Shown here in pieces: positions 27,826-33,773 of a stretch of 64,000 bases of DNA (position 1 is the first letter of the stretch; every line of letters begins with the position of its first letter). Position numbers and translations under genes: made by a program. The DNA comes from an uncultured Clostridia bacterium (lineage in GTDB: Bacteria > Bacillota > Clostridia > Oscillospirales > Acutalibacteraceae). The stretch is from assembly GCA_947166625.1 (NCBI GenBank), contig CAMVEX010000011.1, forward strand, positions 18,611-82,610. The letters are read 5' to 3'. Under the pieces are notes generated by a model, which saw nothing but the letters and a program-made list of their open reading frames with translations, had not been told where the DNA came from and searched no databases.

Positions 27826-28542
27826 TCAATTCTGGTATCTGAGCGGAAGCTCAAGGCCGTTTGCCTCAAGCAGCGCTTTATCCGTAAGTATCTCTTTCGC
27901 GCTGCCGAAAGCACAGAGCCGCCCTTCATTCAGAAGCATAACCTCCCGGCAGGTATCGAGCACAAGATCGAGATCGTGTGACGCGATGAGCTTAGTCTCG
28001 CCGAGCGAATTCAAAATATTTATGAGCATACGCCTGTTTTTGGGGTCAAGCGCCGAAGAAGGCTCGTCAAAAAGGAGTATTTCGGGCTCCATGGCAAGGA
28101 CGGTCGCTATGGCGGCAAGCCGTTTTTCCCCGCCCGAAATCTTATGATTGTAACGGTCGCGAAGGTATGAGATATTCAGCTTCCCGAGCACTTCATCAGC
28201 CCGTTTTCCGGCTTCCTCGCGGCTCATTCCGTAATTTACGGGCCCGAATATCATATCATCCGAAACTTTGGGCATAAACATCTGATTATCGGAATTCTGC
28301 ATCACATAGCCGAGCATTTTGCGTATCCCGGGCAGATTTTTTTTGGCGACTTCGACAGAATTCACCGTGATCCTGCCCTCAAAGGGCAACAGACCCGTCA
28401 GAGCCTTAAACAGCGTGGTTTTACCCGCGCCGTTGGCACCGATTATCCCGACTGCTGCGCCATCTTTTATTTCAAAATCGAGCGAGTGCAGAGCGGGCGC
28501 GCCGCGATCGTAAGCTACCGTAACATTTTCAAATACAATCAT
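27826..28542 (-). CDS. nikO: Nickel/cobalt ECF-type ABC transporter ATPase
   Basis: Walker A GANGAGKTT, ISGGEKRLAAIA, LLFDEPSSALDP. Confidence 0.85.
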   Translation of the reverse strand: MIVFENVTVAYDRGAPALHSLDFEIKDGAAVGIIGANGAGKTTLFKALTGLLPFEGRITVNSVEVAKKNLPGIRKMLGYVMQNSDNQMFMPKVSDDMIFGPVNYGMSREEAGKRADEVLGKLNISYLRDRYNHKISGGEKRLAAIATVLAMEPEILLFDEPSSALDPKNRRMLINILNSLGETKLIASHDLDLVLDTCREVMLLNEGRLCAFGSAKEILTDKALLEANGLELPLRYQN

Positions 28543-28544
28543 TA

Positions 28545-29348
28545 TTATCTCCCAATAAGGCTTCCGAGCGCCTCGGTCAGGTTAAAAAATCTCGCCGTAA
28601 AGATAAGGGCAATCACCGCCGCTGAAATCAGCCATGAAACTGCGCCTCCGGACTGCGGGCGGGTATATTCAAATTCGCCGTTAAATCCCCTTAACACCAT
28701 GCTTTCATAGAGCTCGTTTGCCCTGTCGGAGCTTCTGAGAATAAGCTGGCCGAGAAACGACCCCCACGCTCCGACGGCTACGCCTCTGCTTCCGGGGGAA
28801 CGCAGGCTGTAAGCGCAGCTCATAACGGACACCTCATCGAGCATAACGGAAATATACCGGAATGTGAGCAAAAGAAGAGATACGAGCATTTTGGGGATAT
28901 GAAGCTTTCTGAGCGAAGCGCATATATCTTCTATCTTTGTCGTGGCGGCAAGCAGGAAAGACGCCATCAGAGAAAATACGCCCTTCATCATCAGAGTTAT
29001 CATTGATACAACGCCGCCGCTTATCCGCAGCGAGCCGACGGTAAAGAGTATTTCCCTGTCAAAAACCGGATTGAACAGCCCGACCGCACATACAAGCGGC
29101 AAAATCATCCTCAGCTTGCGAAAGCAGGTAAAAACGGGGATAAGCGCGAGCTGATAAGCTATCACGGGAAACAGAGCCATCACGGCGAGCGCCGAAAAAT
29201 CATATTTCCCGAACGAAACCGTCACCGCTATGTAGGTTACGGTAACGGCGAGCTTTGAAAGAGGGCTCATACGATGAATAAACGAATCTCCGTGAGCGAG
29301 ATTTTCAGCGCCGGCCAGTTCACGGCTCGCTTTTTCAGCTTTATTCAT
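28545..29348 (-). CDS. nikQ: Nickel/cobalt ECF-type transporter transmembrane protein, CbiQ/NikQ
   Basis: CbiQ-like membrane topology, MVLRGF motif, operon context. Confidence 0.85.
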   Translation of the reverse strand: MNKAEKASRELAGAENLAHGDSFIHRMSPLSKLAVTVTYIAVTVSFGKYDFSALAVMALFPVIAYQLALIPVFTCFRKLRMILPLVCAVGLFNPVFDREILFTVGSLRISGGVVSMITLMMKGVFSLMASFLLAATTKIEDICASLRKLHIPKMLVSLLLLTFRYISVMLDEVSVMSCAYSLRSPGSRGVAVGAWGSFLGQLILRSSDRANELYESMVLRGFNGEFEYTRPQSGGAVSWLISAAVIALIFTARFFNLTEALGSLIGR

Positions 29349-29368
29349 CGAATTTCACCCTCCTTATT

Positions 29369-30457
29369 TCAATTTGATTTTTTCTTTTTCGCGGCTCTCT
29401 TTCTGAAAAAACCGCCCGCGAAGCAGACTGCGGCGGCGGCGATCGCCACCATAACGGAGCCGACTATACCCGATACGCTTGTGCCGGCGGGATTTTCGCT
29501 ATCCGAAGAGAAGGCGTAATCGGGAAAGAACGAAGTTTTATTCTGAATTTTTTCCGCTCTTTCGGCGGCTTTGCTCTCAACTCCGAAATTCTCTTCGTCA
29601 AGCCCCATATTCTCGGAATAACCCGATTCGGAATTTCCGAAAAGAGCCCATTCAAGTCCGTCGGGGTTGCCGCTGGCGAGAAGCGAAACGCCTCCGCCAA
29701 CTATCAGAGCGACCGCGGCAATCGTTATCAGCACCGCTTTTACGGAGCCTTTTGACCTCTGCTCATCGGTAATATTTATATCTTTGAGAAGCGAAGGCCT
29801 CGCCTCGCATACAAAGATGAGTATCGCGCTTGTAATAAGCCCTTCCACAGCGCCTACAGCGAGATGTATCGGCTGCATAAGCATAAGGAAAGAGCCGAAA
29901 GGAAGCTCCGTAATACCCGACAGCGAAGTTTCGAGAACGACCGAAAAAGCGCCGAGCTGAAGGGTGATCACACATCCAAGCATTGAGGCAAGGATTATCT
30001 TGACTCTGTTTGCAGATTTGACGGAGGAACTCATCATTTTGCTTCGCATGATCGGCCGGTAAATCAGGAAATACCCGACAAAGCATCCGTAAAACGCCAT
30101 ATTCCAGATATTCGCCCCGAGTGCGAGCAATCCTCCGTCCGCAAAGAAAAGACATTGGATCGTCAAAATCACGATCATGGACAAAAATCCGGCGTAAGGC
30201 CCGAGCAAGGCCGTCAGCATCATTCCTCCGCACAGGTGACCCGACGACCCTGTGCCCGGTATGGCATAATTTATCATCTGACCCGCAAATACGAGAGCCG
30301 CCATTACCGCCATGGTCGGCAGTTTTTTATAATTCGGCTCCTCGCTGAGTTTTTCTTCCTTTTTGAGTTTGTAAATCGAGATCCCGGCCGTGACCGCCGA
30401 GGCGGCATACATTACTCCCGCTACCTGAGGGGAGAGCAGAGCGTCTGCCATGTGCAT
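29369..30457 (-). CDS. nikMN: CbiM/NikM substrate-specific component fused to PDGLE (NikN-like) C-terminal domain
   Basis: MHMADALLSPQVAGVMY N-terminus (metal-binding), GHLCGGMM, C-terminal GNPDGLEWALF. Confidence 0.9.
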   Translation of the reverse strand: MHMADALLSPQVAGVMYAASAVTAGISIYKLKKEEKLSEEPNYKKLPTMAVMAALVFAGQMINYAIPGTGSSGHLCGGMMLTALLGPYAGFLSMIVILTIQCLFFADGGLLALGANIWNMAFYGCFVGYFLIYRPIMRSKMMSSSVKSANRVKIILASMLGCVITLQLGAFSVVLETSLSGITELPFGSFLMLMQPIHLAVGAVEGLITSAILIFVCEARPSLLKDINITDEQRSKGSVKAVLITIAAVALIVGGGVSLLASGNPDGLEWALFGNSESGYSENMGLDEENFGVESKAAERAEKIQNKTSFFPDYAFSSDSENPAGTSVSGIVGSVMVAIAAAAVCFAGGFFRKRAAKKKKSN

Positions 30458-30487: not shown

Positions 30488-31684
30488 TCAAGGCTGTTGA
30501 TTTGTCTCATTCAGGCTCTTCAGAATCTCGGCAATGGACACGCCGCTTTCCGCTGCAATGCGGGAAATATCATCGTATTCGTATTTTTCCTTTGTAACTC
30601 CGAAACCGCTCGATATTTTCTTTCTTATATCGCCGTATCGAGTAGCCACCGATTCTTCGGTGCGGCTCAGAGTATATCTGACGCAGTCGGATTCTCTGAT
30701 GCCGATGGTAGATGTATGCCTGAAGATTGCCGAAACGACGGCGTCGCGTTTTTCGCGGCTGCACAGAGCGCAGAAAATAACTCCCGGCCTGTTTTTTTTC
30801 ATCCCTGCGGGGATGGTGAAAGCATCGACTGCTCCCGCCTTGAAGCATTCGGCAAGTGCAAAGCCGATTTCCTCTCCGGTCATATCATCTATATTGCATT
30901 TAAGCTCGGTTATCGAGCCGGTTTCGCCCTCACTTTCGCCGTAAATCGCTCTCACACAGTTTGCGGCTTCAAAATCTTTCTTTCCCATTCCGTAGCCGAC
31001 GGCCTTGGCAGAAATTACGGGCATACTGCCGAATTCATCCGCAAAATATCTGAGCAGAGCCGCTCCCGTAGGAGTGCAGAGTTCCGATCGAATACTCCCC
31101 GAATATGCAGGGATCCCTTTGAGGATATTTGCGGTCGCAGGAGCGGGAACGGGAAGTATCCCGTGAGCGCATTTCACCTGACCGCTGCCCGTATTTACCG
31201 GGGAGGCAACGACCCTGCAGGGCATAAGCCGCCTCATAAGAAGGCATACCGCGCCGATATCTGCGACTGCGTCGAGAGAGCCGACCTCGTGAAAATGAAT
31301 ATGGCCGACAGGCACGCCGTGCGCTTTGCTCTCCGCCTGCGCAAGAATATCATAGACCGCCTTTATATCATTTTTGATTTCCTCATTGGTATTGAGAGAG
31401 TTTATTATTTTTACTATATCATCGGGGGAAGCGTGACGGTGATGGCCGTGATCATGGTGGGAATGCATATTTTCATCCTCTTCACCAACGTGAATCCTTA
31501 CGCTTATATGAGTGCCCTTCACGCCGCATTTAACGCTGTCTTCGGCGATATATTCGACCCCTTCAATCCCGAGAGAATTAAGCTTAGACAAAGCTTCCTG
31601 CCTGTCGGGCATCAATTCATAAAGCGCCGCCGTGAGCATATCCCCCGCGGCTCCCATGGAGCAATCAAGATAAAGAGTTTTCAT
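30488..31684 (-). CDS. larC: Nickel pincer cofactor biosynthesis protein LarC, single intact ORF
   Basis: LDCSMGAAGDMLTAALYEL; HFHEVGSLDAVADI; His-rich linker HSHHDHGHHRH. Confidence 0.92.
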   Translation of the reverse strand: MKTLYLDCSMGAAGDMLTAALYELMPDRQEALSKLNSLGIEGVEYIAEDSVKCGVKGTHISVRIHVGEEDENMHSHHDHGHHRHASPDDIVKIINSLNTNEEIKNDIKAVYDILAQAESKAHGVPVGHIHFHEVGSLDAVADIGAVCLLMRRLMPCRVVASPVNTGSGQVKCAHGILPVPAPATANILKGIPAYSGSIRSELCTPTGAALLRYFADEFGSMPVISAKAVGYGMGKKDFEAANCVRAIYGESEGETGSITELKCNIDDMTGEEIGFALAECFKAGAVDAFTIPAGMKKNRPGVIFCALCSREKRDAVVSAIFRHTSTIGIRESDCVRYTLSRTEESVATRYGDIRKKISSGFGVTKEKYEYDDISRIAAESGVSIAEILKSLNETNQQP

Positions 31685-32435
31685 TTTTAACCTCCATGTG
31701 GTTTATCATCCCGGCGAGATAGCCCGCTCCGAATCCGTTATCTATATTGACCGCCGCGACTCCGCTCGCGCAGGAATTGAGCATTGAGAGAAGTGCGCTC
31801 AGTCCCTCAAACGCCGCGCCGTATCCGACGCTCGTCGGCACGGCTATGACCGGGCAATCGGCAAGCCCGCCTATAACGCTTGCGAGGGCGCCTTCCATAC
31901 CTGCTATGGCAATTATCACGGAGGCGCTCATTATTTCATCCAGATGGGCGAGCGTGCGGTGAAGCCCGGCGACGCCCACATCATAAAGCCTCACGACCTC
32001 ATTGCCGTGCACCTCGGCGGTAACTGCCGCCTCCTCGGCAACGGGGATATCCGAGGTCCCTCCCGTGGCGATGACTATCTTGCCTATGCCGTCGGGAGCG
32101 GGGATCTTTCCGATTATTCCCGCCCTTGCCTCGCTTCTGTAATCAAGCGGATGCGCCTTTGCAACTTCCTCGGCGCTCTCGGGAGAAAGGCGGGTGATCA
32201 ATATGGTTTCAACGCCGTTTTTGAGCATTGTTTCAGCGATCCCGATGATCTGATCGGATGTTTTTCCTGCGCCGTAAATGACCTCGGGCATACCCTGCCT
32301 GACTTCTCTGTGAAGATCGACTTTTGCATAGCCGATATCCTCAAACGGCTGCTTTTTGATCTTGAGAAGAGCATCGTCAACGCTTATCTCGCCGCTTTTT
32401 ACCTTCTCAAGGAGCTCTTTCATTTCACTTTTCAT
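31665..32435 (-). CDS. larB: Nickel pincer cofactor biosynthesis protein LarB (AIR carboxylase-like)
   Basis: DLHREVRQGMPEVIYGAGKT, ATGGTSDIPVAEEA, CPVIAVPTSVGYG. Confidence 0.92.
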   Translation of the reverse strand: MKSEMKELLEKVKSGEISVDDALLKIKKQPFEDIGYAKVDLHREVRQGMPEVIYGAGKTSDQIIGIAETMLKNGVETILITRLSPESAEEVAKAHPLDYRSEARAGIIGKIPAPDGIGKIVIATGGTSDIPVAEEAAVTAEVHGNEVVRLYDVGVAGLHRTLAHLDEIMSASVIIAIAGMEGALASVIGGLADCPVIAVPTSVGYGAAFEGLSALLSMLNSCASGVAAVNIDNGFGAGYLAGMINHMEVKNENSLS

Positions 32436-32558
32436 TTTTCCCTCAAAAAATACGGGCATACAGCCCCCTTCAGGGAACCGTATGCCTTCATGACACTGTT
32501 TGAATTTGAGTTTGACGCGGCTTCTGCCGCCTGCGACGGCTTCCTGCCGACCGCCCGT
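32436..32558 (-). promoter_or_regulatory. Structured 5' leader of nickel operon with terminator-like hairpin (candidate riboswitch/attenuator)
   Basis: On the minus strand: CGGC-AGGAA-GCCG, GCGGC-AGAA-GCCGC, then 14-bp stem GGCATACGGTTCCC-TGAA-GGGGGCTGTATGCC followed by CGTATTTTTT just before larB. Confidence 0.55.
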
Positions 32559-32560
32559 AT

Positions 32561-32589
32561 ATATTAACATATACTTTTTTGAATTGCAA
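32561..32589 (-). promoter_or_regulatory. Candidate promoter of nickel operon
   Basis: TTGCAA-N17-TAATAT on minus strand. Confidence 0.4.
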
Positions 32590-32704
32590 TATCCGCAGGC
32601 AAAATTACTTAAAAATCCGTTCATTTTCCGTTATCACATTTTTAAGTTAACATTAAGCCGGGCAGGATATAATCCTGCCAACGAAACAAACAGGAGGAAT
32701 AAAT

Positions 32705-33737: not shown

Positions 33738-33773
33738 GGCGGCTGTCACATTTGAGTGGCAGCCGCCGTTTTT
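33738..33773. terminator. Bidirectional hairpin terminator
   Basis: GGCGGCTGTCAC-ATTTGA-GTGGCAGCCGCC then GTTTTT. Confidence 0.75.

Follow-up and report, generated by a model that had tools for sequence, protein, structure and literature searches.

The larB leader and its operon

The window (the whole 64,000-nucleotide stretch analysed, from an uncultured Clostridia bacterium; contig CAMVEX010000011.1 of GCA_947166625.1) carries on its minus strand an operon of nickel-pincer (NPN) cofactor genes and ECF-type metal uptake genes. The features of the operon and of the leader in front of it are:

32561-32589 (-), sigma-70-type promoter TTGCAA (32589-32584), 17-nt spacer, TAATAT (32566-32561)
32537-32549 (-), hairpin H1, CGGC[AGGAA]GCCG, at the predicted 5' end of the transcript
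32517-32530 (-), hairpin H2, GCGGC[AGAA]GCCGC
32497-32516 (-), linker, not conserved
32482-32496 (-), hairpin H3, GUGUC[AUGAA]GGCAU, candidate antiterminator, whose 3' arm is the 5' arm of the terminator
32455-32486 (-), intrinsic terminator stem of 14 bp (three of them G-U) with a UGAA loop, its apex termed H4; followed by CGUA
32445-32450 (-), U6 tract of the terminator, 9 nt before the larB ATG (32435)
32440-32444 (-), GAGGG, likely Shine-Dalgarno of larB
31665-32435 (-), larB, first step of NPN cofactor synthesis (NF033503, 284.9 bits, cut-off 175)
30488-31684 (-), larC, LarC1 + LarC2 (TIGR00299, 199.1 bits, and NF052512, 132.9 bits, both over cut-off)
27826-30457 (-), cbiM/nikM-like, cbiQ and cbiO-like genes (CbiM-type models below cut-offs, CbiQ TIGR02454 at cut-off, ECF ATPase family below cut-off)

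The original prediction had described the promoter, H1, H2, the terminator and the U6 tract, and every one of these elements is where it was said to be. H3 had been missed. An open frame (31665-32624) runs from an ATG at 32624 through the whole leader into larB, so automatic annotation could wrongly extend LarB by about 63 residues. On the plus strand, a strong 12-pair terminator (33738-33767) closes the divergent HtrA-like gene.

The leader is more than a chance arrangement. It folds at -49.9 kcal/mol against -33.1 +/- 3.2 for shuffled sequences (z -5.3; none of 200 shuffles was as stable). A descriptor of tandem GAA-loop hairpins gave one hit in 636 kb of Markov-shuffled strand sequence, whereas a near-identical, though not identical, descriptor gave 46 hits over both strands of 111 loci plus the window. 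The helix AUACGGGC/GCCCGUAU that pairs the 5' and 3' parts and dominates the minimum free energy fold was rejected as a part of the element, because it is not shared with relatives and most of it would precede the predicted start site.

A conserved leader class absent from Rfam

LarB relatives were collected, and many were found to carry the same leader, either directly before larB or at the start of a longer lar operon. Thirty-two leaders, aligned by sequence only, showed strong covariation in all three hairpins: 15 of 19 pairs had changes on both sides, and the score was 0.641 against 0.310 in shuffles, while slid controls collapsed. A covariance model then found further leaders. With 79 leaders the score was 0.693, against 0.267 shuffled and at most 0.125 slid; the later leaders were aligned by the model, which leans towards the structure. 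In this set all 7 pairs of H1 had changes on both sides (86.8% of cells paired), all 5 pairs of H2 covaried (95.5%), and 5 of the 7 pairs of H3 had changes on both sides (92.3%). Absence of covariation in homologous leaders had been put forward as grounds for dropping the idea, and this test thus came out in its favor.

The same is true of the other condition set in advance, that transcription should not start downstream of the hairpins. Sixty of 79 leaders have a promoter match of at least 9/12, against 7.9 in shuffled upstream sequences, and the -10 box most often ends 5-9 nt before the leader match begins, placing H1 at the 5' end of the transcript. The window's own promoter scores 8/12. 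A scan against Rfam 15, which had also been proposed beforehand, found no NiCo riboswitch (RF02683) and no other family at the gathering threshold in the window or in 18 relatives (only tRNAs were found), and no match at E<=10 in the leader.

Conserved letters are confined to the loops and adjacent pairs: A(N)GAA|G in H1 (G, A and A each in at least 74 of 79 leaders), mostly C|AGAA|G in H2, and ANGAA|G in H3. The three loops look alike (A(N)GAA closed by C-G), and the terminator apex often does too. In the 52 leaders in which it was measured, the GAA-to-GAA spacing of H1 and H2 is 18-22 nt (mean 19.7, sd 0.96) while the two stems together vary from 8 to 14 bp. The spacing between H3 and the terminator's apical loop is mostly 18-19 nt, so the apex may be a fourth site. 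GAA-ending terminator loops are common in leaders (5 of 14 strictly defined) and rare in other terminators of the same loci (7 of 137; p 0.002). The linker between H2 and H3 varies from 8 to 92 nt. Minimal versions have only H1 and H3/terminator (loci L178, L179 and L182), whereas locus L091 has an extra GAA-loop hairpin, TACCGC[AGGAA]GCGGTA, in its linker (around 3119), suggesting that the number of loop sites varies.

H3 and the terminator are alternative structures

The 3' arm of H3 pairs with the H3 5' arm (at least 6 of 7 pairs in 87% of leaders with their own arms, 50% with swapped arms) and also with the terminator 3' arm (91% against 54%). Neither value was matched in 10,000 permutations, and 88% of leaders can form both structures. 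Swapping does not remove relatedness; 27 different arm sequences occur. The two structures are mutually exclusive and the terminator is the more stable: alone it folds at -23.4 kcal/mol, and in the window the values are about -24.4 kcal/mol against -16.3 with H3 enforced, a cost of about 8 kcal/mol; the median difference over 78 leaders is 8.6 kcal/mol. The default is termination, and something must stabilize H3.

Genes downstream of the leader

Of 100 leaders inspected, 60 precede lar genes, 29 an ECF S component (PF12822), 3 NikA-type binding proteins, 2 FecCD permeases and 2 trmO genes (one of them followed by a CooC-like ATPase and FecCD); 4 could not be assigned. One of the unassigned, L136, lies before a methyltransferase and a NikB-like permease. 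Several nickel-type transporters sit in one operon with larE-larB-larC (L183, L186, L191, L196). Nickel is the common theme. The ECF S component, the second commonest target, is unexplained and may transport something else; it is often followed by a PRK/uridine-kinase-like protein with an unknown N-terminal domain (L120, L127, L142, L152, L168). These operons are not known nickel genes, and the substrate is unknown, possibly a nucleoside-like compound. Many lar operons (L132, L134, L135 and others) start with two small membrane proteins (MACFLVPAAEAVVTT..., about 140 aa; MTLLTTVFAAIICT..., about 104 aa) that match nothing in Pfam; the first also matches nothing in NCBIfam.

Leader presence tracks DUF3842

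In many loci a gene of the uncharacterized family DUF3842 (PF12953, about 137 aa) lies directly upstream of the leader (13 of 37 lar loci). Is this a local coincidence? In an even draw of 393 genomes of the window's class, 43 of 47 genomes with a leader have DUF3842 against 97 of 346 without (p 2e-17). At leader E<=1e-6 it is 24 of 24, and 24 of 49 leader sites lie within 2.5 kb of the gene. These scans scored few candidates per genome, so leader counts are lower bounds; the model's E-values are rough, and most of the genomes are metagenome-assembled. Leaders were commonest in the window's class (47/393) and rarer in a wider draw from the phylum (10/399).

Within the window's own genus, 17 of 18 leader genomes have DUF3842 against 2 of 27 others (p 3e-9), and the two genomes with two leaders have two DUF3842 genes. 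The leader is not correlated with larB itself (8/18 against 12/27, p 1.0). Among the 20 larB-bearing genomes of the genus, leader and DUF3842 agree in 18. The exceptions are genome G037, which lacks DUF3842 and whose leader is not the larB one and runs off a contig end, and G044, whose larB lies at a contig end. One strong leader genome, G200, has no DUF3842.

DUF3842 also occurs in 97 genomes without a detected leader, often behind nik/cbi transport genes, so that either it has a role without this RNA or the scan misses leaders. A search near the 30 best-scoring DUF3842 loci of leader-negative genomes found only one leader, in a genome already on the leader list, and no tandem hairpins were found in nik operons. 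In genomes G028 and G015 (L243, L246) DUF3842 and the ECF S gene are directly adjacent with no leader between them; in G028, DUF3842 lies 36 nt before the ECF S gene. On a tree the DUF3842 genes of leader genomes group together (5 changes against 15.4 shuffled); this comparison is biased, since the leader-negative rows were the best-scoring hits.

No solved structure is related to DUF3842 by sequence. The AlphaFold model (pLDDT 85), for which relatives from the collected loci were used and proteins from the genome scans were not, has a generic Rossmann-like fold with only weak matches in the PDB (TM-scores about 0.5 at best). A literature search found no paper naming DUF3842 in the library searched, and nothing on a lar or nickel leader of this kind; a 50-genome ncRNA survey does not mention nickel or lar.

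ALTERNATIVES tested

Dual-hexaloop targets of ANTAR proteins such as EutV and NasR (PMC8934654) are the closest known system. They share with the leader two tandem hairpins with recognizable loops, a strict inter-hairpin distance, a second structure overlapping an intrinsic terminator, and default termination; in most leaders the H3 3' arm does overlap the terminator stem. However, the loops are NGAA or ANGAA tetra- or pentaloops (AGGAA, AUGAA, AGAA and so on) rather than hexaloops with A at position 1 and G at position 4, there are three to four hairpins in two pairs, and it is the first hairpin of the second pair, not the second, that overlaps the terminator. Moreover, ANTAR (PF03861) is absent from 19 of 35 leader-bearing genomes, including the single-contig genome G404. 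The leader probably works like ANTAR-type antitermination but is not a member of that family. CsrA/RsmA sites likewise are short hairpins with purine loops, several per leader, and AGGAA contains the GGA that CsrA likes. Here, though, the consensus is A(N)GAA and not ANGGA, with GGA in 17 of 52 H1 loops and in none of the common H2 loops, the leader acts by a terminator, and CsrA (PF02599) is absent from 24 of 35 leader-bearing genomes including the window's. The NiCo (czcD) riboswitch is also a terminator-bearing metal-gene leader of Firmicutes, but it has a four-way junction instead of separate hairpins and serves efflux genes, whereas this leader precedes uptake and cofactor synthesis genes. 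The guanidine-II (mini-ykkC) riboswitch has two small similar hairpins with conserved loops, but these are ACGR, and GAA loops cannot kiss each other by Watson-Crick pairing. A known class missed by the models is accordingly largely refuted. A terminator before a gene can act simply as a partial stop, but an ordinary unregulated attenuator, or chance hairpins, is refuted by the covariation, and the conserved alternative structure and the partner gene also speak against it.

Two other readings are unlikely but not excluded. The main rival is a direct riboswitch, in which the tandem hairpins bind Ni2+ or a nickel-cofactor metabolite and shift H3 against the terminator with no protein. The leader-terminator architecture and the gene set would fit, repeated hairpins could bind cooperatively, and no Rfam class covers the element; protein-free ligand binding was not assayed. 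Against it, the conserved letters lie only in small loops and nearby pairs, with no conserved junction or pseudoknot seen and a free linker, and leader presence follows DUF3842, not larB. About as unlikely is antitermination by a different, unidentified RNA-binding protein, with DUF3842 as a nickel-handling companion in the same regulon. The occurrence of DUF3842 next to nickel/cobalt transport genes without any leader, and the G028 arrangement, are in keeping with this, but the near 1:1 pattern within one genus, including copy number and joint absence in larB-bearing genomes, is more than sharing a regulon usually gives, and the known candidates ANTAR and CsrA are missing from most leader-bearing genomes.

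A proposed protein-dependent antitermination switch

The interpretation first offered, a ligand- or metal-dependent leader for nickel uptake and nickel-pincer cofactor synthesis, possibly of a new class, is supported in part. This is a real terminator-bearing regulatory leader, it is not NiCo, it looks like a new class, and the genes behind it in other genomes are mostly nickel genes. That the RNA itself is the ligand sensor is not supported as stated, since the confinement of conserved letters to repeated small loops and their closing pairs, the variable linker and the co-occurrence with a protein family point to a trans-acting protein rather than an aptamer.

We accordingly favor, with a probability of roughly 0.6, a transcription-attenuation switch read by a protein, most likely DUF3842. 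In this view the nascent RNA by default folds the terminator and transcription stops before larB. In the ON state DUF3842 would recognize the A(N)GAA loops, first H1 and H2 at the 5' end and then H3, perhaps with H4 at the same spacing, and would hold H3 so that its 3' arm is unavailable to the terminator and polymerase reads into the operon. The signal is probably nickel availability or a nickel-dependent metabolite, although nickel is inferred only from the genes controlled. What our analysis demonstrates is the conserved hairpins, the mutual exclusivity of H3 and the terminator, the promoter position, the gene set and the co-occurrence with DUF3842; that DUF3842 binds the RNA, that it senses nickel, and that binding turns genes on rather than off are inferences. 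Neither RNA binding nor metal binding by DUF3842 has been shown, so that its frequent adjacency to and co-occurrence with the leader leave its standing as the cognate RNA-binding protein undecided. A Cys conserved in nearly all members, mostly as N-[HKR]-C, is one candidate for ligand binding.

Nickel regulation is known mainly through DNA-binding repressors such as NikR and one riboswitch class, NiCo. The switch would be a separate, RNA-level control for nickel uptake and the nickel-pincer cofactor in common gut and rumen bacteria, and gives a concrete, testable function for a family of unknown function. A further-reaching possibility, held only tentatively, is that DUF3842 founds a new family of nickel- (or nickel-cofactor-) responsive RNA-binding antiterminators with a Rossmann-like fold, acting on a new class of tandem GAA-loop hairpin leaders that control nickel uptake, NPN cofactor synthesis and an uncharacterized ECF transporter in Clostridia and some relatives.

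In the window's genome (G000) the DUF3842 gene (G000:C10:15914-16297; L235) is not next to the leader; it follows a D-2-hydroxyacid dehydrogenase-like gene. The same arrangement is found in a close relative (G044:C24; L244), a possible link to LarA-type hydroxyacid metabolism.
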